This document shows positions 718-24,929 of a stretch of 31,263 nt of DNA, piece by piece (positions within the stretch are counted from its first letter, which is position 1; each line of letters opens with the position of its first letter). Source of the DNA: a virus; IMG/VR virus record IMGVR_UViG_3300032282_001083, positions 1-31,263 of that record; one strand, given 5' to 3'. The notes below the pieces were generated by a model. That model was given only the letters and a program-made list of their open reading frames with translations. It made no database searches and had not been told where the DNA came from. Both the position numbers and the translations under genes were made by a program.

Positions 718-1530
718 TTATTCATGCCAGCCAAGCTCCATCGCATCTTGTTGGCTCTGTGCAGCTTCACGCACTCGCCAGTTGGTGCTGTTGGCATACT
801 TGGTGAAGATGTCGCCGCCAATAGCCTTGGCTGCGGCCTTCTCTAAACGCTTGTCTGCCTCTGCTGGGATGAAGTTCTCTACGGAGTAAACCTCACCATC
901 CACGAATGACGTATGCGTGTTGGCCTTGTAGTCTGATAGGTAGTTGGAGCCAAGCGCATTGAGTAGCTGTGGAGTTGTAGCAAATGCCCAGCCATCTGCA
1001 ATCCTGCCCACCTTGAGCTGTGCCTTGTCGTCTCGCACAACATCGAGCACAGTCTTGCCCCTAATGCGCTGGATGATGGCAAACGCATAGTAGCCTGAGA
1101 TGTCACGGGCCACAGCATCAATGCCATCTGCCTTCCATGCGTGCAGCAACAGCTCGGAGTCGCAAGTCGATTCCGTATTATGGAAACGCTTAGACGACAC
1201 GATGCCGTTGTGCACCAGCGCAGAGTTGTTGCCCAGCATAGGATGGGTGTTGGCCACATTGACGCCACACGTTGCCGTGCGGCCATGAATGATGAGCGCG
1301 CCACCATCGCTCTTGAGCCCATTACCCTCTGAGAATGCAGCACAGAATGCTGGCAAGTCAGGAAGCAATGATGCCTGTGAACTCTTGACGTATCCAATCT
1401 TTCCATTCGGGCTAACCCACGCTGCACCGAATCCGTCTCTCTCTGTCTTGGACATTTCTGTCCAAGCATTGACAATGATAGTACCAAGTTTGGTGCTGTC
1501 ATGCTTAGTAACGATTGCTAATTTACACAT
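718..1530 (-). CDS. Class II glutamine amidotransferase, 270 aa
   Basis: An Ntn-hydrolase glutaminase of the GATase II family. The start places Cys at residue 2 (MCKLAIV), the catalytic nucleophile freed when Met is removed. Family motifs follow in order: HGRTATCG (82-89), NTHPM (94-98), HNG (107-109) and DSE (124-126), then GYYAFAI (146-152) and RDD (166-168). These bind glutamine and release ammonia from it. No sugar-isomerase, asparagine-synthetase or other synthetase domain is attached, so ammonia must be passed to a separate partner. The amidoligase gene immediately upstream is the obvious candidate. The start has an A/C-rich leader without a clear Shine-Dalgarno sequence. The family assignment is secure; the substrate and product are unknown. 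Confidence 0.9.
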   Translation of the reverse strand: MCKLAIVTKHDSTKLGTIIVNAWTEMSKTERDGFGAAWVSPNGKIGYVKSSQASLLPDLPAFCAAFSEGNGLKSDGGALIIHGRTATCGVNVANTHPMLGNNSALVHNGIVSSKRFHNTESTCDSELLLHAWKADGIDAVARDISGYYAFAIIQRIRGKTVLDVVRDDKAQLKVGRIADGWAFATTPQLLNALGSNYLSDYKANTHTSFVDGEVYSVENFIPAEADKRLEKAAAKAIGGDIFTKYANSTNWRVREAAQSQQDAMELGWHE

Positions 1531-1570
1531 ATGTTTGTTTGTTTTGTACTTCCAACCGAGGAAGACATGA

Positions 1571-1594
1571 CAGCCCCCAATTGCTTAGGGGCTG
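1571..1594 (-). promoter_or_regulatory. Hairpin between amidoligase and amidotransferase genes
   Basis: CAGCCCC (1571-1577) and GGGGCTG (1588-1594) form a perfect 7-bp stem with a 10-nt loop in the 70-bp gap between the two genes. No T-run follows on the minus strand, so it is not a typical terminator. It may be an RNA processing or stability element that sets the ratio of the two enzymes. Confidence 0.45.
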
Positions 1595-1600
1595 GATGAC

Positions 1601-2608
1601 TCACTCGTTCTCTGCGTTTGGCGTAGTGCTGTTATACTGAGCAGGATTGAGTTGAGCATGGCGTTTAAGCCAATAGCTCCGCTCATACTCAGTCAACGGC
1701 AACTGCGACAATGCAGCAACTCCTTGTGCTCCCGCCTTGGGCTTGGTATTGAGCACAAACAGTAGCTCCACTAGACGAATCCACGCAATGATTTTCGTAT
1801 AATCCACGGTGCCGCTGTGCAAGCGTATTTCCAGCGTCTTATACTTGCGGAACGCTGTGAAGTTGACGGCTCGATAGCGATTGGTCTCAGAGAAACTAAG
1901 CGCAGCGTAGTCATTGTTGTTGCGCCGACTCTCTGGCACGAACTCCTTGAGTGCAATGAGCCATGCAGTCATACGCTTGGCAATAGCGCGAACATCGGCC
2001 TCCACACGCCCACGACAATCGAGATGGACATGAAGCCCACACGATGTGTTCACCTTGTGGTCTGATATGAGCGAACAGAAACGATGGAGTCGCATTTCTA
2101 ACTCGCTGCGCTTGAGAAGTATTTTATACTCCACAGGCTGCGTGTTGGGAAAAGAGCGTATGCTTCCATCACCAGTTTCGCGGCTCCATACTGGCAGCTC
2201 TATTTTCCTACCATCTGGACGGCAACACTCAATCTCCACGCCAATCGCTCTGTCATAGCGAAAGGTTTGGGGAATGAGCGGTTGGTTTTTGATGCGCTCA
2301 AGGAGTCCATTTTTGACTAGCCTATCGCCGTTAGCACGTTGGCAACGACGGCGAAGCTCCAGCATATCAATGCGTTTTTGATTGGAACGATAGCGCATTG
2401 TGTCCAGAAGACACGTTTTTATGCTGTCTTCGCATTCGCCGTTTTGTCTGGCGCGTATTGCGAAGTGTTTTGCCCACTGTCTCTGGGTATACTCGTCGAT
2501 GAAGCTAAACCTCGGCAACGAGTAACGCTTTCCATTCATGAAACCACGGGTGCCTATGCTTTGACAGGCTCCCTCGGCATACTCTGGCATTTCTATATTA
2601 CTTCTCAT
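1601..2608 (-). CDS. Amidoligase-family enzyme (COOH-NH2 ligase), 335 aa
   Basis: This matches the putative amidoligase family, distant relatives of glutamine synthetase and gamma-glutamylcysteine synthetase. Visible motifs in order are GVEIE (123-127, metal/ATP-binding glutamates), GDGSI (146-150), VEYK (159-162), CGLHVHLD (190-197), YRAVNF (245-250) and TLEIRLHSGT (258-267). The first 115 residues are basic and helical and are not part of the recognised core. Family members are predicted to join an amine to a carboxylate using ATP. The class II amidotransferase that follows could supply ammonia or a glutamyl group. The leader carries three tandem hairpins (2630-2686). The true substrate, such as a cell-wall peptide, a protein or a small molecule, cannot be read from sequence. 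Confidence 0.88.
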   Translation of the reverse strand: MRSNIEMPEYAEGACQSIGTRGFMNGKRYSLPRFSFIDEYTQRQWAKHFAIRARQNGECEDSIKTCLLDTMRYRSNQKRIDMLELRRRCQRANGDRLVKNGLLERIKNQPLIPQTFRYDRAIGVEIECCRPDGRKIELPVWSRETGDGSIRSFPNTQPVEYKILLKRSELEMRLHRFCSLISDHKVNTSCGLHVHLDCRGRVEADVRAIAKRMTAWLIALKEFVPESRRNNNDYAALSFSETNRYRAVNFTAFRKYKTLEIRLHSGTVDYTKIIAWIRLVELLFVLNTKPKAGAQGVAALSQLPLTEYERSYWLKRHAQLNPAQYNSTTPNAENE

Positions 2609-3393: not shown

Positions 3394-3714
3394 TTAGTTG
3401 AGCTTGGCGAGCATGGCCTCAATCTTAGCCTTCTCTTTCAACAGCTTGGCGCGTTCGTCTTGTGTTCCACGAAGAGTGAGCGTAACAACGGGAACGCCAT
3501 TTTTCAGCGTGCGACGTTTCTCGCCCACTAGGGTGAGTCCTTCATGCTCGATGAGCGTGCCAATTTGCGACGGAGTCAGTTGCATGAGCCGTGCTTTCTT
3601 TTCAGCGCGGAACTGTTTAATTTCAGCGCGGTGAGTTTCCATCATCTCTTTGGAGAAAGAGTTAGTGGTGTTTACAATCTGTTCGATTTCGTTGTTGTAG
3701 GTTGCGAGTTGCAT
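3394..3714 (-). CDS. Hypothetical helical protein, 106 aa
   Basis: No family is recognised. The protein is charged and mostly helical. A Lys/Glu-rich segment (ETHRAEIKQFRAEKKARLMQ) leads into LTPSQIGTLIEHEGLTL, then a strand pair around GVPVVTLTLRGTQ, and a C-terminal amphipathic helix (KLLKEKAKIEAMLAKL). The start at 3714 is preferred to one at 3801 because it follows an A-rich leader with AGAAAG, and the upstream extension looks non-coding. It is the first gene of the leftward arm, directly next to the large control region, so it may be expressed early. Confidence 0.65.
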   Translation of the reverse strand: MQLATYNNEIEQIVNTTNSFSKEMMETHRAEIKQFRAEKKARLMQLTPSQIGTLIEHEGLTLVGEKRRTLKNGVPVVTLTLRGTQDERAKLLKEKAKIEAMLAKLN

Positions 3715-4212
3715 TTTGTTTGTCTTTCTATTTTGTGGATTTTGGCCGTCGCGACGTGCGACGTTACACCCTTGCGCTGCGATGAAGCAATCCACTTGCA
3801 AGGGAATACAAGGCGAGCCTTACGGTCTTTGACGGAACCACCCATGCTCGCCTCGCTTTGTGTCTTTGCGCTTGTCACGTTCACTCGACACAAGTGAACC
3901 GCGCGCCCCTCGGCTTTCCTGAGTTGCAATCCACCTTGCAATGGCTCCCTAGACAGGATGGGCTCATGCTCGTCATCCTGCTTGCTCGCGGCCACCTCTC
4001 GGCACCGCGCTAGCTCTTCGCCTTGCTACTTCGTGTGATTGCTTTGCGGGTCTTCGCGCCTTTGCGCTCGCCGCTTTCCTCGTGTGCTGAACTGTCAAAG
4101 AACTACCGACGCCACCCATCATGTGTATACCTCTTTAGATTTCAATCACCATTTTTTCAAATCGGGATTCGCGCCATATCAATCAACACTTTACGACATA
4201 AAACAGTTTTAC

Positions 4213-4294
4213 CGGACTGTCAGATTTACTAGGGGAAACGCTAAGGGAAACGCACGGGGAAAGGAAACAGACGGACGCAATCGGACTGTCAGAT
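4213..4294. repeat. Direct repeats next to the parS-like site
   Basis: The 13-mer CGGACTGTCAGAT occurs at 4213-4225 and 4282-4294. Between the copies GGGAAACGC occurs at 4233-4241 and 4245-4253, with a related GGGGAAAGG from 4257. Short spaced direct repeats like these are typical of binding sites for a replication initiator or regulator (iteron-like), but no initiator gene is in the window. Confidence 0.5.
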
Positions 4295-4309
4295 GTTCCA
4301 CGTGGAACA
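4294..4309. other. parS-like centromere site (ParB-binding palindrome)
   Basis: TGTTCCACGTGGAACA is a perfect 16-bp palindrome. It matches the conserved bacterial chromosomal parS form, TGTTnCACGTGnAACA, with the CACGTG core. Host ParB (Spo0J) proteins bind such sites, load SMC and drive chromosome segregation. No parA or parB gene is seen in the window, so either the phage genes lie outside or the host proteins are used. The family of sites is established; occupancy here is inferred. Confidence 0.7.
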
Positions 4310-4340: not shown

Positions 4341-4409
4341 CAGGCACGTCGAATGCATTTGCCTCTCCCCTTGAAAATGCCTTCACGCGATGCCCACCAA
4401 TACCCAGAC

Positions 4410-4544
4410 ACGCCCGCACGCCCGTATTAACGCCCGTATTGACGTACCCGCGCGTAGATAGGCACGCACGCCCGCGCTAATGCGCCCGCGCCCGCCCGCA
4501 TACGCACGTCCGCACGCCCGCGCGCGTACCTAGGGGGGGAGGGG
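4410..4544. repeat. GC-rich ACGCCCG repeat tract ending in a G-run
   Basis: ACGCCCG occurs exactly at 4410, 4418, 4430, 4468 and 4514, with GCGCCCG and CCGCCCG variants between, so C and G are unusually concentrated. ACGCCCGTATT is repeated at 4418 and 4430. The tract ends in seven G, A, four G (4533-4544). Its composition is unlike anything else in the window. The function is unknown. It could be a packaging recognition site, part of an origin or a foreign insertion. Confidence 0.6.
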
Positions 4545-4840
4545 ATTCGTTTGCGTGGGGTGTGGCTGACTGTTAATTGGTTAGAATCGACCGTTTAAAA
4601 ATTATTCTAAATGGGGGCTCCAGTCTCATTTCAATTTGCTTCTGGTTGGAACTGTTACCAAAGCGTGCCACTTGTTAGGAAGTGTAAAGGAAACGCCACT
4701 TTTCCATCTATGTTTAAGAAACATGTACAACTATGTTATTGGCTTCATTACCAGAAATAGCTTGACAAGTGTTTGTTTTCCCCCTCACACTCCCCCTTTC
4801 TTTTACAAGTTTCTTTTAATTTTTAGTTAAACAATAGCAA

Positions 4841-5335
4841 ATGTCTGAAGAGCAAGAGAGCACGATTTTTCTTACTTCCATAGTGGAAGCGGATAGTCGT
4901 ACCTTGGAAGCGCGAGAGCCAACTAAGGCTATGCTGTGTTTAGAGCTTCTGGCGGATGGGAGTACATGGCAGGAAGTGGCGGATAGCACGGGTTGGAGCT
5001 TCAATCAAATAAGCTCGGTGAAGTCTAGGCATGAGCTTGCCATTGACATTAGGAAGAAGCAACTTGCAGCTGATGGCTTTGAGATGGCTGAGGGCATTAG
5101 GCTTCTGATGAAACAGAAAATGGCTATGCTGGCAGACAATCCAGATGCCTTGGCTAAGGTGAACGTCAAAGACTTGGCCCTGTCCTACGGTATAGCCGTG
5201 GATAAAGGTATGCAAGCCTTAGGGGAGAACAAGATGGTCATTGAGCATAAAGCGGGTAAGCCCAGCCTAGAGGATGCTATGAAAGCCATTGAGGATGCTA
5301 GAGCCGCGCTTCAGAAGGAAGCCATAGAAGTATGA
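4841..5335 (+). CDS. terS: Probable terminase small subunit, 164 aa
   Basis: This protein would recognise phage DNA and hand it to the large terminase. A helix-turn-helix is visible at the N-terminal third (STWQEVADSTGWSFNQISSV), followed by long helices suited to ring assembly and a charged C-terminus that could contact the large subunit. Its place directly before the large terminase gene is the classic arrangement, and the length suits the family. The primary sequence alone is not diagnostic. The start has an A-rich leader and no Shine-Dalgarno sequence. The adjoining repeat region may contain its recognition site. It overlaps the next gene by ATGA. Confidence 0.7.
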   Translation: MSEEQESTIFLTSIVEADSRTLEAREPTKAMLCLELLADGSTWQEVADSTGWSFNQISSVKSRHELAIDIRKKQLAADGFEMAEGIRLLMKQKMAMLADNPDALAKVNVKDLALSYGIAVDKGMQALGENKMVIEHKAGKPSLEDAMKAIEDARAALQKEAIEV

Positions 5336-5541
5336 AAATTAAGTTAACATCGTTCATTAAAAGCCCAATTGTTATTGATGATGAGTTTGTTGTTGTTGCG
5401 CTAACTCCCCGTGGTTGCATAAACACATTAAGAAATTTCATCATCAAAGATGGCCGCAAAGTAAAAAACGCTTGGTACAATCGTTATACCGATGGCAATA
5501 ACTATCGCGCCAATCTTTTAATTAAATGGGAAAGCGTATGA
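5332..5541 (+). CDS. Hypothetical protein between terminase genes, 69 aa
   Basis: A small basic, strand-rich protein (IKLTSFIKSPIVIDDEFVVV, then LTPRGCINTLRNFIIKDGRK). Its ATG overlaps the TGA of the small terminase gene, and its TGA overlaps the preferred ATG of the large terminase gene, so all three are translationally coupled. An AAGGAAG sequence lies upstream of the start. No family is recognised. It might be a packaging accessory or a small inserted gene. Confidence 0.6.
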   Translation: MKIKLTSFIKSPIVIDDEFVVVALTPRGCINTLRNFIIKDGRKVKNAWYNRYTDGNNYRANLLIKWESV

Positions 5542-7136
5542 TTTGGAAGAAGCATCCCATATTAGTCCCTCCCACGAACGAGGAGATGGCACGGATGAAG
5601 CCTGAGGCTTTAGCCAATCTGTTCGACATCTACCATCAGGCCATTGAGAATAGTCAGCGTGATCCTTACAGGTATGGCTTTAAGCTGCCTCATTGGAAGA
5701 AGGCAGAGGAATTGCTAGGGGAGTTCAACGAATTACTTGTAAGCGGCGGCAATCGGTCTTCTAAGACAACATGGGCGGCTACGGCTGTGGTGAAGGCTGC
5801 GATGGAGAATCCGGGTAGTGTCATCATGTGCTTTGCCCAGAATGCGGATGTGTCCATACGTCAGCAGCAGAGTGCCATCTATGATGCCTTGCCAGAAGAA
5901 CTGCGTAAGAAAACTCTAAGCGCAGAAGAGAACATCAGCTACACTCGTAAGAACGGATTCTCTAAAAGTAGTTTAATATTACCAGTCACTCGTAGCCACA
6001 TCATATTCAAAACTTATGCACAGTTCCTCAACAACGACACCATCTTGGAAGGCGCAGAGCTGGGCAGCCGTGAACCTGTTTGGCTTAACATCGGCGCTTG
6101 GTGTGATGAGTATCTTATTGGCCCTGAGCTCCTCACTACTCTTAGGTTTCGTCTTGCTACAAGAAACGCTAAAATTATTGTTACGTTTACTCCCATTGAC
6201 GGTTATACGGAAGTTGTACGAGACTATCTTGAGAAAGCACGAACAGTTGAAACTAAAGTTGCAGAACTTCTGAATGACAGGCCCGTTCCGTTTGTTCAGC
6301 ACTCGGCAAATAGGAATAGCGGCATCATCTATTTCCATTCTAAGGACAATCCGTTTGGTGGATATGAGCGCATTGCTCAAGACTTGAAGGGAAGAGCCGA
6401 AGAGGAAATCCTTACACGCGCCTACGGTATTCCTACCAAGAGTGCGTCCACTCGGTTCCCTTTGTTCTCCCGTGAGGTGAATGTCATCCCGCATGACAAG
6501 ATTCCTGCCGATCTAACACGCTACATGATTCTCGACCCCGCTGGGCGCAAGAACTGGTTTATGTGCTGGATTGGGGTGGATGCTGATGAAACCTACTACG
6601 TCTATCGTGAATGGCCTGACGTTAATGTGGGAGATTGGGCCAAGTGGCATGGCGGTAAGTGGATTGGAGGCGAAGGTAGCAAGGGACTTGGCTATGGCAT
6701 TAAGGACTACGTTGATTTGATTGTCGGCCTAGAGGAAGACAACAGTGAGGAAATCTTGGACAGGCTCATTGACCCACGTTTGGGTGCAGCCAAGTATCAG
6801 TCGCAGAATGGGGCGAGCTCCATTATCGAAGACTTGGCAGACAATGGGCTTACGTTCAATCCAGCTCCCGGCCTAGACATCGAGGATGGCATACAAGCCA
6901 TTCAAACCAAGATGGCTTACAATCGTAAGACCAAGATTGATGGCATCAACCATCCACGGTTCTATGTCTCGGATAGGTGCGAGAACATCATCACAGCTTT
7001 ACAGGAATACACAGGCGATGGCGGAAGCGACGAAGCGTGGAAAGACCCTGTGGACGTAATACGTTATGCCTGCATTGACGGCATACGTTGGGTAGACAAG
7101 ACGATACAACAATCAAAACGAAAGGGCGGATACTAA
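5538..7136 (+). CDS. terL: Terminase large subunit (packaging ATPase and nuclease), 532 aa
   Basis: The motor that pumps DNA into the prohead and cuts it. The ATPase domain has a Walker A variant in VSGGNRSSKTTW (about 68-79) and a Walker B with catalytic Glu in IGAWCDE. The RNase H-like nuclease domain has its first acidic residue in MILDPAG, a second region around DRLIDPRLGAAK and the last in DPVDVIRYACIDG. Length and order are those of a full large terminase. The start at 5538 is preferred because it overlaps the previous TGA (ATGA) and has GGGAAAG just upstream. An ATG at 5526 would add four residues. The stop overlaps the next ATG as TAATG. Confidence 0.95.
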   Translation: MIWKKHPILVPPTNEEMARMKPEALANLFDIYHQAIENSQRDPYRYGFKLPHWKKAEELLGEFNELLVSGGNRSSKTTWAATAVVKAAMENPGSVIMCFAQNADVSIRQQQSAIYDALPEELRKKTLSAEENISYTRKNGFSKSSLILPVTRSHIIFKTYAQFLNNDTILEGAELGSREPVWLNIGAWCDEYLIGPELLTTLRFRLATRNAKIIVTFTPIDGYTEVVRDYLEKARTVETKVAELLNDRPVPFVQHSANRNSGIIYFHSKDNPFGGYERIAQDLKGRAEEEILTRAYGIPTKSASTRFPLFSREVNVIPHDKIPADLTRYMILDPAGRKNWFMCWIGVDADETYYVYREWPDVNVGDWAKWHGGKWIGGEGSKGLGYGIKDYVDLIVGLEEDNSEEILDRLIDPRLGAAKYQSQNGASSIIEDLADNGLTFNPAPGLDIEDGIQAIQTKMAYNRKTKIDGINHPRFYVSDRCENIITALQEYTGDGGSDEAWKDPVDVIRYACIDGIRWVDKTIQQSKRKGGY

Positions 7137-10029: not shown

Positions 10030-10104
10030 TGGAGCCCCCGATAGGGATTGAACCTACGACAGCCAGTTTACAAAACTGGTGCTCTACCACTGAGCTACAA
10101 GGGC
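10030..10104 (-). tRNA. tRNA-Thr (anticodon UGU)
   Basis: A complete 75-nt cloverleaf. The acceptor GCCCTTG pairs with CGGGGGC (two G-U pairs). The D arm is GCTC-AGTGGTA-GAGC and the anticodon arm CCAGT-TTTGTAA-ACTGG with anticodon TGT. The T arm is GTAGG-TTCAATC-CCTAT. The discriminator T is followed by an encoded CCA. It reads ACA codons, with wobble to others in the box. It lies on the minus strand inside the rightward virion operon, so the late mRNA carries its antisense. It may support translation of phage late genes or mark a past recombination at a host tRNA. Confidence 0.95.
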
Positions 10105-14655: not shown

Positions 14656-16638
14656 ATGTCCGGCATTTTTGACCAAATCATCAACTATTCTCCGCCTACT
14701 ACCATTTCTGGAGGTGTTGACTATAAAGGTACATGGAATGCTTCGACTAATAGCCCAACGCTGTTAAGTCCTCCAAATTCTTCAACTAAGGGTTTTTACT
14801 ACGTTGTTGATACGGCTGGAACACAGTTTTCAATTAACTTTGCTGTTGGCGACTGGATTATTAGCAATGGCACGGCTTGGGAGAAGGTGGACTTAACGGA
14901 CGCTGTTTCCAGCGTGTTTGGTCGTACAGGAGCTGTTGTTGGGGCGAGCACCGATTATTCGTCTGTTGGTCTTACAGGAACAGCTATTGGGGCTTCTAGT
15001 CCATCTACGGGTGCTTTTACCACTGTTACGGCAAGCAGCACTATTGCGGCTACTGGTGCAGTGACTGGTAGCAATCTTAGTGGTACTCATAGCGGAACGT
15101 CTAGCGGTACAAATACAGGCGATCAGACCATCACACTTACAGGTGGTGTCACTGGTAGCGGTACAGGCTCATTTGCGGCTACCGTAGTTACCAATGCCAA
15201 CCTCACTGGCGCGGTCACCTCAGTTGGCAACGCCACATCTCTCGGCTCTTTCTCCTCGGCCAATCTTGCGGCTGCGCTAACAGATGAAACAGGTAGCGGC
15301 GCGGCGGTATTTGCTACGAGTCCAACTCTAGTCACGCCAGCCCTTGGCACACCCTCAGCCATTGTGCTTACCAATGCCACCGGACTCCCGCTTACTACGG
15401 GTGTAACGGGTGTGCTCCCTATCGCTAACGGTGGCACTAATTCGTCGTCTGGCGTGCAAGCAACAGCTCGTTTAACGGGATATACGACTACGGCAACTGC
15501 TGCTGGAACTACTACGCTTACAAATACTAGCACTTGTTTTCAAACATTTACTGGCAGTTCCTCGCAAACTGTTGTTCTTCCAGTAACTAGTACACTAGAG
15601 GTGGGTTGGAAATTTGTTATAAATAATAGATCAACTGGTACATTAACAGTTAATTCTAGTGGAGCAAATATTGTTATTTCAATTGCATCAAATATAACGG
15701 CAACAATTGTTTGCATTGGAACTACGCTTACAACTGCTGCGGATTGGAATTATGAATTTTCTGGTTTTTTAACTAGATCGGGTACCGGAAATGTATTGCT
15801 TGGTACTGGCCCAAGCATGACCAGTCCAACTATAAGTGGAAGCACGACTTTAAGTGGAACTCCTATTTTTACTACGAGTAGTACAACCGATGCAATAGCT
15901 ATTGGTAATACTGCTGGAACCGGAACAATAACTCTAGGTCGTTCAACCGCCAGTCAAACACTAGCCCTCGGCGGTGGCGTAACAGCATCCGGTAATACCA
16001 ACACTATCCAGATCGGTACGGCTGGTGCGGCGGGTAGCACAACGGCTATCACCCTTGGCAGTGCGTCGGGTACGAGCAGCGTTGCGGTTAGCGGAACATT
16101 GAGCTCAAGTGGTCAAATTACTGCAAATGGTGGTGTTGCATTAGAGGGACAAACGCTGGCTTGGAATCAGGCCGGAGTTCGCTCATGGTCGATGACCACA
16201 GCCACAAGTTCTGGGAATATGTCCCTCAACTCTGGCGATACTTTAGGTACATTTCGGGTAAATATGCCTTTAGTGGTTTCTGGCAGTGTTTCCGATTCAA
16301 TTGGAACAATGCGACAGATTCCACAGAACTCACAATCTGCGGCATATACACTTGTTTTGGCTGACGCTGGAAAACACATCCTACATCCATCGGCAGACAC
16401 TACGGCTAGAATATTTACAATACCAGCAAACGGAAGCGTTGCTTATGCCATTGGAACAGCAATTACTTTTGTTAATCAAAATGCTGCTGGCGTTGTAACA
16501 ATCGCAATTACTACCGATACAATGCGCTTGGCTGGTGCTGGTACAACTGGTTCTCGTACACTTGCCGCAAACGGAGTTGCCACTGCAATTAAAATTACTT
16601 CTACTGAGTGGATTATTTCTGGAACGGGACTTACCTAA
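14656..16638 (+). CDS. Tail fibre or adhesin, 660 aa, repetitive
   Basis: A long Ser/Thr/Gly/Ala-rich protein of the type seen in phage side fibres. The N-terminus has the attachment-like segment DYKGTWNAST and a GDWIISNGTAWEKVDLTDAV stretch. The shaft contains fibre signatures such as FGRTGAVV, GTNTGDQT, SPTLVTPALGTP and LPIANGGTNSS. The C-terminal third changes to more varied strands ending in a likely head domain (ITSTEWIISGTGL). Base composition in 15540-15960 is more AT-rich than in flanking parts, which suggests exchange of shaft or tip modules. It determines host binding by analogy; the receptor is unknown. Confidence 0.8.
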   Translation: MSGIFDQIINYSPPTTISGGVDYKGTWNASTNSPTLLSPPNSSTKGFYYVVDTAGTQFSINFAVGDWIISNGTAWEKVDLTDAVSSVFGRTGAVVGASTDYSSVGLTGTAIGASSPSTGAFTTVTASSTIAATGAVTGSNLSGTHSGTSSGTNTGDQTITLTGGVTGSGTGSFAATVVTNANLTGAVTSVGNATSLGSFSSANLAAALTDETGSGAAVFATSPTLVTPALGTPSAIVLTNATGLPLTTGVTGVLPIANGGTNSSSGVQATARLTGYTTTATAAGTTTLTNTSTCFQTFTGSSSQTVVLPVTSTLEVGWKFVINNRSTGTLTVNSSGANIVISIASNITATIVCIGTTLTTAADWNYEFSGFLTRSGTGNVLLGTGPSMTSPTISGSTTLSGTPIFTTSSTTDAIAIGNTAGTGTITLGRSTASQTLALGGGVTASGNTNTIQIGTAGAAGSTTAITLGSASGTSSVAVSGTLSSSGQITANGGVALEGQTLAWNQAGVRSWSMTTATSSGNMSLNSGDTLGTFRVNMPLVVSGSVSDSIGTMRQIPQNSQSAAYTLVLADAGKHILHPSADTTARIFTIPANGSVAYAIGTAITFVNQNAAGVVTIAITTDTMRLAGAGTTGSRTLAANGVATAIKITSTEWIISGTGLT

Positions 16639-22215: not shown

Positions 22216-24126
22216 ATGGCTTTTAACCCACAGACAGGCGAGTATGAGCAGGATATGGTTGCCGATCCAACCAAAGCTCCTGCCGCCAACCCATTTGGTT
22301 TTGACCCCGGCCAAGCCACCCGTGACTATCTCGCTGGCGTAGCCAATCCTCAAACCCTTACAGCCCTGCTTGGTGCCGAGGCTGCGGCTCGTCCCCAGTT
22401 TGGTGCTCTTGGCCTTCAGGACATTGCTCAATATACAGGTGGTGCTGCTGCATTTGACCCGCAAGCATTTCTTGCTGCTCGTCCAGATATTCTGGCTAAC
22501 TACCGCAACAGTCCACAGGATTATGGTGCAATTTATGGTAGCCTAGAAAACTACGCTAAAGCTGCGGCTGATGCGGAAGGACTCACTTCTCAGTTCACAG
22601 CCAAAACAGGCGGTTCCCTTGACCTGCTTAAACAAGCTGGCGGTGTTACAAGCGGTCTTGAGACAACGGCAAATACTGCCCTTCGTACTGCTGGCGCGGC
22701 AGATCTTGCCGCTTTAGCTCCTCAACTTGCGGCCACCTACAACCAGATTAACCCAGAGGTTCTTGGCAGTTTGCAACGAGCCCAAGCCTTGCAGGGTGGA
22801 ACCGATCAGTATGCCGGGATGCGTAACGCCATCCAGAACGCTCAACAGTTTGGCAACCTTCAGTTCAATCCCGCTCAAGCCTCTTTGCTAGGTAATGCGC
22901 CACAAGTGGGTTTAGGTGGCTATAATGCCGCGCAAGCCGCTGCTCAAGGCTATCAGCCAACAATGGCGGCTGGTGGTATGCAGACAGAAGCCGAGCGTTT
23001 GGCCCGTGGTCAACTGGGTCAATCGCTTTACAATCAGGCTTTGCAAGCTGGCCCTAGCCAAGCTGCTCAACTTCTTGGTGGTCGTGCGGCAGAATTTGCC
23101 GCTAGCACAGGTCAGCTTTCTCCAGAAGAAATTCGTAACCTTCAGCAAGGAACCCGTGAAGCCTATGCTGCGCGTGGCATCGAGATGAGCAATCCAGCGA
23201 TTGCTGCTGAAGCTGCGGCTCGTTCTGGTGCAATGCGTCAACGTCAAGCTGAAGACTTGGCTCAAGCCACAGCTCTCAATCAGGCTTACACCCAAGACCT
23301 TACAGCCAATCGTCAATTTGGTACTGGCCTTTATGGTCAGGATATTGGTTTGCAACAGGCCAACCAACAGGCTGCGCTTCAAGCTTCCCTTGCCAATCAA
23401 CAGACGGGTCAACAATTCTCGTTGGCCAATCAAGCTGCGGCTAACCAAGCTGGTCAATTTGGAGCTACCGCTCAGAACCAAGCCAACCTTGCCAACCAAG
23501 CTGCTCTTAATCAGGCTCTTATGTTTGGGGCCGAGGCTGGCAATCAGGGTCAGCTTACGAATGCCCAGCTCCAAGCTCAGTATGCAATGACCAATCAAGG
23601 AGCCCAAAATCAATTTGCGCTCACCAATCAGGCTGCTGGGTTAGACCTTAATGCCCAGAACCGCTTGTTTGCCGCCAATCAGCAACAACAGAACATCTCC
23701 AACCTTGGCCTACTGGGTCAAGCTGGCACACAGGCTAGCGAGGCCAATCGTGCTTACGCCCTCAACCTAGCCCAAGGCTATCGTGGTGCTGCGTATGACC
23801 CAACGGCTATGCTGCTAGGCCAACAGAGCAATGCTCCTCAGGCCGCTGCTCAACAACAAGGCTACGCTCTGGACTTGGCTAAGACGTTTAACGCTCCCAC
23901 CACTTACAATCCTGATACTGGCATCAACTTGGCGATGGCCAATCAAGCCAACATCACCAATAGGGACATTGCTCAACAATCTGCTGCCGCTCAATTGCAA
24001 GCCGCAAATACGGCTGCTTCTGCTACAAAAACTGCTGGTATTGCGGGCGGAGTTGGTTCATTGTTGGGCGGCGCAGCCGGTGTAGCCTTGGCTACAAAAG
24101 CAATTCCGGCTCTCGTCGCCTTTTAA
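22216..24126 (+). CDS. Ejection (internal virion) protein, Gln/Ala/Asn-rich, 636 aa
   Basis: Probably an internal protein ejected with DNA to build a channel across the host envelope. The composition is dominated by Ala, Gln, Asn and Gly. About residues 380-500 hold loose repeats of SLANQAAANQAGQFG, NLANQAALNQALMFG and ALTNQAAG type, likely long helices. The C-terminus is hydrophobic and glycine-zipper-like (AGIAGGVGSLLGGAAGVALA), consistent with membrane insertion. Two equally large candidate ejection genes follow. The stop overlaps the next ATG as TAATG, which couples it to the PP-loop enzyme. Confidence 0.7.
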   Translation: MAFNPQTGEYEQDMVADPTKAPAANPFGFDPGQATRDYLAGVANPQTLTALLGAEAAARPQFGALGLQDIAQYTGGAAAFDPQAFLAARPDILANYRNSPQDYGAIYGSLENYAKAAADAEGLTSQFTAKTGGSLDLLKQAGGVTSGLETTANTALRTAGAADLAALAPQLAATYNQINPEVLGSLQRAQALQGGTDQYAGMRNAIQNAQQFGNLQFNPAQASLLGNAPQVGLGGYNAAQAAAQGYQPTMAAGGMQTEAERLARGQLGQSLYNQALQAGPSQAAQLLGGRAAEFAASTGQLSPEEIRNLQQGTREAYAARGIEMSNPAIAAEAAARSGAMRQRQAEDLAQATALNQAYTQDLTANRQFGTGLYGQDIGLQQANQQAALQASLANQQTGQQFSLANQAAANQAGQFGATAQNQANLANQAALNQALMFGAEAGNQGQLTNAQLQAQYAMTNQGAQNQFALTNQAAGLDLNAQNRLFAANQQQQNISNLGLLGQAGTQASEANRAYALNLAQGYRGAAYDPTAMLLGQQSNAPQAAAQQQGYALDLAKTFNAPTTYNPDTGINLAMANQANITNRDIAQQSAAAQLQAANTAASATKTAGIAGGVGSLLGGAAGVALATKAIPALVAF

Positions 24127-24929
24127 TGCAATATCAAAACAAGATAGATTATGCTCATGCCCTTATTGAGCAAACGCTAAAACGCGCCCAGAATCCAGCA
24201 ATTATGTGTTCCTTTGGAAAGGATAGCATGGTTGTACTTGATTTAGTTCTCAGACATACGCGCGATATTCCTGTGATTTTCCACAGAGAGTCATTTCAAC
24301 CGCATAGATATCGTTTTGCCAACAGCGTCATAGATAGCTTTAACCTAACTGTTTATGACTATCCGCCGTTAAATACTGAAATTCAAGAACATAACGGAGA
24401 AGTTGAGATAGTCAATTATTACTCAATAGGCAAACAAACCTGCATGGTTCCAACAGGGATTCGCGCACCACAGGTAGGAGAACAGTTTGTTTGTGGTCTA
24501 AAAGACATCTATCTCAAGCCAACTGGTTCATTCAAATACCCTTGGGACTTTGTTTTTCATGGGCATAAGAGCACGGATGTTGACCCAATTTACGGAAAGA
24601 TTCCATTGAACTCCGACTTTGCGGTTAATCTTGAGAGTGCAAGCGCAGCGTTTCCTATCAGGATGTTTACGGATGAAGACCTCTGGCGATATACTGAGGA
24701 AAATAATGTTCCCATCCATCACACTCGATATGTGAAGGAGAATGGCAAGTGGAAGGAGCGCGAGGACAAGAGCATGAATCCAGACTACTTCTCGGCTTGT
24801 ACTGCTTGCATGAACAAGTCTTCACCCAATTCCGTTCCGTGCCCAAAGATGGGCGGAGCCCTAGTAAGCAATGTTTCCGAGCAACTTCGGTGGGCTGCTA
24901 GAATAGACCCAGTTTACATGAGGCAGTAA
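24126..24929 (+). CDS. PP-loop enzyme, PAPS reductase/CysH-like, 267 aa
   Basis: An N-terminal PP-loop SFGKDS (29-34, after NPAIMC) and the following helix VVLDLVL identify the adenylate-binding superfamily that includes PAPS/APS reductases. HRESFQPHRYRFAN follows as the second conserved region. Five cysteines are seen, including CGLKD in the middle and CTAC plus VPCP near the C-terminus. The usual C-terminal ECG(I/L)H active site of PAPS reductases and their paired Cys-Cys...CxxC iron-sulphur ligands are not evident. It may therefore be a different sulphur or nucleotide-activation enzyme. CysH-like genes are known as phage auxiliary genes. Unusually, this one sits inside the ejection-protein genes, TAATG-coupled. 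Confidence 0.8.
   Translation: MQYQNKIDYAHALIEQTLKRAQNPAIMCSFGKDSMVVLDLVLRHTRDIPVIFHRESFQPHRYRFANSVIDSFNLTVYDYPPLNTEIQEHNGEVEIVNYYSIGKQTCMVPTGIRAPQVGEQFVCGLKDIYLKPTGSFKYPWDFVFHGHKSTDVDPIYGKIPLNSDFAVNLESASAAFPIRMFTDEDLWRYTEENNVPIHHTRYVKENGKWKEREDKSMNPDYFSACTACMNKSSPNSVPCPKMGGALVSNVSEQLRWAARIDPVYMRQ

Follow-up and report, generated by a model that had tools for sequence, protein, structure and literature searches.

The 16-bp palindrome TGTTCCACGTGGAACA at positions 4294-4309 of the window (the whole stretch of DNA analysed here, a 31.3-kb linear record from a virus of freshwater bacteria) is probably a genuine host-type parS site, acquired and kept as an orphan, that would recruit host ParB to the junction of the packaging and late genes. 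The sequence of the site, its recurrent placement, the selective constraint acting on it and the absence of a phage ParB or ParA were all observed directly, and we regard it, with good confidence, as a target read by the ParB protein of the host. Viruses unrelated to this one carry the same site next to their own packaging genes, and therefore these viruses probably recruit a host chromosome-sorting protein.

Within the window TGTTCCACGTGGAACA was the single match when up to three mismatches were allowed, and it was also the sole perfect 16-bp palindrome in the 31 kb (no strand is assigned to it). It agrees with the chromosomal-type 16-bp parS palindrome TGTTNCACGTGNAACA, for which both variants at the N position were found in related contexts. 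From base composition, 7e-6 occurrences of the exact 16-mer and 1.2e-4 occurrences of the 14 fixed parS bases were expected, and 100 dinucleotide shuffles yielded no match to TGTTNCACGTGNAACA. These counts confirm the initial annotation, which had described a perfect chromosomal-type parS palindrome whose 14-position match should arise far less than once in 31 kb. Its further claim that the site lies among repeats where the genome arms diverge was also correct: parS occupies the space that separates the leftward genes (the last at approximately 3394-3717, minus strand) from the rightward genes (the first at 4841-5335, plus strand), together with copies of CGGACTGTCAGAT and CGCCCG-rich repeats.

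Of the two CGGACTGTCAGAT copies (4213-4308, plus strand), one lies at 4213 and the other at 4282; the latter runs up to parS and is common to the window and the related locus L007. Rightward of the site, CGCCCG-rich degenerate direct repeats (4406-4528, plus strand) precede a G-rich box, AGGGGGGGAGGGG (4532-4544, plus strand), which is conserved in the family, where most members carry it as AGGGGGGGAGGGGGT. The box lies approximately 240 bp from parS and is followed by a conserved AT-rich block holding the inverted repeat TTAGAAT-N16-ATTCTAA (4581-4610, plus strand, read from the sequence), so that positions 4532-4610 form a conserved block ahead of the terminase genes. A number of contigs from metagenomes begin directly downstream of the G-rich box, and the 38.9-kb record G002 starts just past it and ends in the intergenic region preceding it. 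These contig ends fit a role for the box as a candidate packaging terminus (cos or pac), although an assembly break at the G run would give the same picture.

The last leftward gene (3394-3717, minus strand) has an ATG at 3717, or extends to 3801 with a TTG start, and the first rightward gene (4841-5335, plus strand) is a candidate terminase small subunit by position and size only; Pfam and PHROG searches with either product returned no match. The terminase large subunit (TerL) follows at 5526-7136 on the plus strand (phrog_2, E 4e-19). The leftward arm encodes an amidoligase (1601-2608, minus strand, PF12224), adjoined by a glutamine amidotransferase-like gene (the pair spanning 718-2608, minus strand); the same pair occurs in the related genome C75C1, where it is annotated as gamma-glutamyl cyclotransferase and amidoligase. 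The rightward structural arm also contains a tRNA-Thr (anticodon TGT) on the minus strand at 10030-10104 and, between structural genes, a PAPS-reductase-like gene at 24126-24929 on the plus strand.

The nearest described genome, C75C1, is a circular record of 39.5 kb that is likewise laid out in two arms, and several relatives measure 38-39.5 kb. Because the window represents 31.3 kb of a phage of approximately 39 kb, part of the early arm is out of view within the missing 8 kb or so. Searches for isolate relatives using TerL, portal and capsid returned only C75C1, which lacks the site and has no recorded host; no TerL relative was present in 84,980 species genomes, and a genome-wide search with the tRNA-Thr pattern gave no match. 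Shine-Dalgarno motifs are missing at most gene starts, which, together with LexA-like elements in four relatives, may hint at a host such as Verrucomicrobia.

The initial annotation had found no ParAB gene near the site, and this holds for the window and its long relatives. A ParB_N domain (PF02195) was detected in none of 26 long family records, neither a ParA-type ATPase (PF13614) nor a tyrosine integrase (PF00589) was detected in 22 family records including the window, and C75C1 has no partition or integration gene. Among parS-bearing records more broadly, ParB_N was found in none of 50 (14 of them family members) and gave three matches in a further 50, a set overlapping the first in a few records; since these records may be fragments, absence is not proof for each individual one. 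Thus the site is present and parAB absent, as in an orphan parS, and the family records searched hold neither the parB nor the parA of a self-sufficient ParABS cassette of the P1 or N15 type, N15 being a phage-plasmid with its own partition system. Nor did the 22 records contain the tyrosine integrase or partition genes that would mark a temperate phage or phage-plasmid. The proposal that the phage might persist like a plasmid is therefore disfavoured, both because integrase and partition genes are lacking and because the place of the site is fixed; segregation alone would leave its position at the packaging locus unexplained.

Recurrence was assessed in a family set of 241 loci with related TerL, whose upstream regions total 463 kb. 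The perfect 16-mer was found in 28 of the 241 regions (the window counted), two more differ at the first base, and L022 carries TGTTCTACGTAGAACA. Overall, 31 of 131 assessable family loci have the site. It is invariably intergenic and on the upstream side of TerL, and wherever the G-rich box could be recognised, the site precedes it by 110-307 bp. The 16-mer is by far the commonest palindrome of at least 14 bp in the 463 kb, the runner-up being an AT repeat with 9 occurrences. One clade, of marine relatives, has TerLs approximately 45% identical to that of the window, and there no other 16-bp segment is as conserved as the site (0.994, versus 0.69 and 0.74 in its flanks). The flanks differ among the window, L007, L071, L077, L078, L132, L257, L285, L292, L300, L323 and others, and as they do not align between subgroups, the parS-bearing intergenic regions are not one cassette; whole intergenic regions have clearly been exchanged among family members.

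Presence of the site is scattered, with most family members lacking it. Mapping onto the TerL tree required 15 site changes, and at least 12 gains or losses are forced by well-supported branches. L027 has the site while L026, with an identical TerL, has none, and in L004 and L012, the closest relatives of the window (TerL 99%), both sides align and 28-36 bp around the site are missing. The check proposed at the outset, conservation of the 16-mer at the same locus in relatives, therefore gave a divided answer: the site recurs at that locus in 31 of 131, and it is absent from L004 and L012. Taken literally, such absence in close relatives would speak against function, but these same 16 bases have been gained more than once, and the combination of scattered presence with repeated gain favours a selected optional module over a lack of function. 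Recurrence, the changes on the TerL tree and conservation in the marine clade together establish that the site is maintained by selection.

The pattern TGTTC-N6-GAACA occurs 29 times in the 241 upstream regions, 28 times with CACGTG as the core and once with TACGTA, and TGTTC/GAACA pairs with other spacer lengths are practically nonexistent there; therefore the whole parS, and not a pair of half-sites, is the unit, and a regulator binding TGTTC...GAACA half-sites was rejected. The L022 site, at -1080 from TerL, reads TGTTCTACGTAGAACA, with a symmetric pair of changes at positions where parS allows no variation, and the L022 phage could have a different reader; L027, the sister of L022, carries CGTTCCACGTGGAACA. 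A further sequence, TGTTCAACGTTGAAAA in L003, L019, L023, L030 and L031, is positioned elsewhere and was judged unrelated.

The search was extended to 2.9 million viral contigs, with figures given among the matches listed and genes predicted by a simple ORF caller; these are metagenomic contigs, and some IMG/VR entries may be host fragments or redundant, the TerL-linked cases being clearly phage. At least 120 matches were obtained for TGTTCCACGTGGAACA and at least 120 for TGTTTCACGTGAAACA, compared with 10 for the control TCTTCCACGTGGAAGA, in which one base per arm was altered and the core and composition were kept. The controls TGTTCCAGCTGGAACA and TGTTCTACGTAGAACA gave 54 and at least 120 matches, the latter mostly one repeated coding word, and because raw counts for two of the controls were not comparable, the intergenic fraction and the closer control were used instead. 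Among the matches listed, 56/110 and 61/106 of the parS sites fell outside ORFs of at least 100 aa, versus 0/50 and 23/115 of the control sites, and 37 of 236 parS loci had the site within 2 kb upstream of TerL, versus 2 of 174 control loci (p = 8e-8). Likewise among the matches listed, the 137 large ORFs within 2 kb of sites included 23 TerLs of phrog_38 and 8 of phrog_2, compared with 5 and 4, respectively, among 150 large ORFs farther off at the same loci. In approximately 20 listed loci the site precedes the TerL start by 26-170 bp. Clustering the TerLs that have a site within 2 kb upstream gave 18 groups at an identity of 70% and 11-12 groups at 40-50%.

Both parS variants stand side by side, approximately 24 bp apart, in L130, L152, L180, L189 and L190, and clusters of 5 to 12 sites were found in L186, L428, L455, L498 and L526. 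That either C or T is used where the parS consensus leaves the base free points to ParB as the reader rather than a phage-specific factor. Within one 116-kb viral contig (L498:8907-13877), twelve sites, each GTTTCACGTGGAAC or GTTTCACGTGAAAC, occupy 5 kb, and no ParB match was found there. A second palindromic motif, TTAGAATNATTCTTA or TTAGAATCGTTCTAA, lies next to parS in L333 and L339-L349 and near it in L425 and L515, thus recurring beside parS in unrelated phages. Among isolates, Pelagibacter phage HTVC027P carries GTTTCACGTGAAAC at position 16413, in an intergenic gap approximately 630 bp from its small terminase gene; it is the only one of the named phages nearest the phrog_38 group with an intergenic core site, and none of them has the site beside TerL.

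ParB proteins recognise the parS sequence, close as a CTP clamp and spread along DNA (summarised in PMC12704722). By extension, once phage DNA had entered the cell, host ParB would recognise parS, load as a CTP-dependent clamp and spread across the early/late junction, the terminase genes and the putative DNA terminus. Since parS is linked to the packaging locus and not to arbitrary positions in the genome, the effect would most likely be local. ParB occupancy might then either organise or position the phage DNA end through the host ParA/SMC machinery, or keep the flanking late transcription in check until ParB is titrated by the growing number of sites that replication produces. We give these two possible effects about the same weight.

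Under the second of these possibilities, which we advance tentatively, parS-bound host ParB represses the flanking late (terminase) promoters, early promoters or both, and titration by phage copies lifts the block. Many phrog_38 phages have the site 26-150 bp upstream of TerL, in L130, L152, L189 and L190 it follows directly after a TATAAT hexamer, and P. aeruginosa ParB represses promoters beside parS3 and parS4 (PMC5521831). However, B. subtilis lacking its ParB shows no expression change (quoted in PMC5521831), and in the window approximately 470 bp separate the site from the closest TTGACA that precedes 4841, and approximately 570 bp separate it from the left gene, so that repression there would depend on spreading. 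An equally tentative proposal is that ParB at the DNA terminus recruits ParA, SMC or both, and that the phage genome is thereby placed, segregated or compacted. This corresponds to the established role of ParB-parS and agrees with the tight spacing between site and G-rich box; moreover, SGI1 secures its own stability with parS sites that it has stolen (PMC10954446). Positioning alone, however, does not predict proximity to TerL, and phages with neither integrase nor partition genes have no known need for stable inheritance.

It is unlikely that the palindrome is a packaging element, such as a terminase recognition sequence or a cos/pac arm, that merely resembles parS. The site does adjoin TerL and the candidate terminus, but an identical site occurs in phages with unrelated TerL types (phrog_2 and phrog_38), loci with identical TerL (L027 and L026) differ in having it, relatives with 99% TerL lack it, and two parS variants alternate. 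Less probable still is that the site is the operator of a repressor encoded by the phage or of a host regulator resembling LexA. A palindrome in a divergent control region would suit such a protein, as would the symmetric L022 variant and the LexA-box-like TGTAC-N4-GWACA (a form with N4 spacing) seen 20-30 bp upstream of parS in L285, L292, L300 and L323; the near-invariant CACGTG core, the failure of any other spacer length to recur and the sharing of the site by unrelated phages all argue against it. A chance match or a transcription terminator hairpin is hardly credible, since chance predicts approximately 1e-4 occurrences and is contradicted by recurrence in relatives, and the terminator scan that listed 4294-4309 gave no more matches than shuffles, with no consistent T run after the site in relatives and with conserved rather than co-varying sequence, unlike the conserved hairpin and T run of an intrinsic terminator.

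Recruitment of host ParB by an orphan parS accordingly remains the preferred reading. Its parts are already known; what would be new is the hijacking of a resident ParB by phages through an orphan parS at the terminase locus, and no report of a chromosomal parS as a phage orphan at this locus was found in the open-access literature. A broader claim, which we consider evenly balanced, is that several unrelated lytic phage lineages have repeatedly gained orphan parS sites at the terminase/packaging junction, where host ParB would act as a switch sensitive to copy number or as an organiser of the genome end; phage-host interactions of this class have not been described before. The known task of ParB-parS is to sort chromosomes and plasmids, and one mobile island is known to steal a plasmid system. 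Should phages recurrently place the chromosomal site next to the genes for packaging, host ParB would become a hub of infection, and the ParB imaging and ChIP tools already in use would allow direct tests of how phage DNA is placed, silenced and timed inside the cell.

Compared with known systems, the site shares the exact TGTTNCACGTGNAACA of chromosomal parS/ParB (Spo0J) (Livny et al. 2007), but here it resides on a phage genome, usually as a single copy, and not near oriC or parAB. The intergenic parS3 and parS4 of P. aeruginosa likewise affect neighbouring promoters, although those sites are chromosomal and act on cellular rather than phage genes (PMC5521831). Phage-plasmid partition systems (P1, N15 and mycobacteriophage parABS, PMC7157519) also place a centromere-like site on phage DNA, but they encode their own ParA and ParB and use a private parS, none of which was found in the window family. 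A parallel in mode of action is SGI1, a mobile element with parS and without parAB whose orphan sites hijack the IncC plasmid ParABS for SGI1 stability (PMC10954446), as use of another replicon's ParB is predicted here. There, however, the reader is the ParB of the IncC plasmid, the site is a different one of 22 bp and its carrier is an integrative mobilizable island, whereas in the phages described here, which have no integrase, the universal chromosomal parS is placed at the packaging locus.
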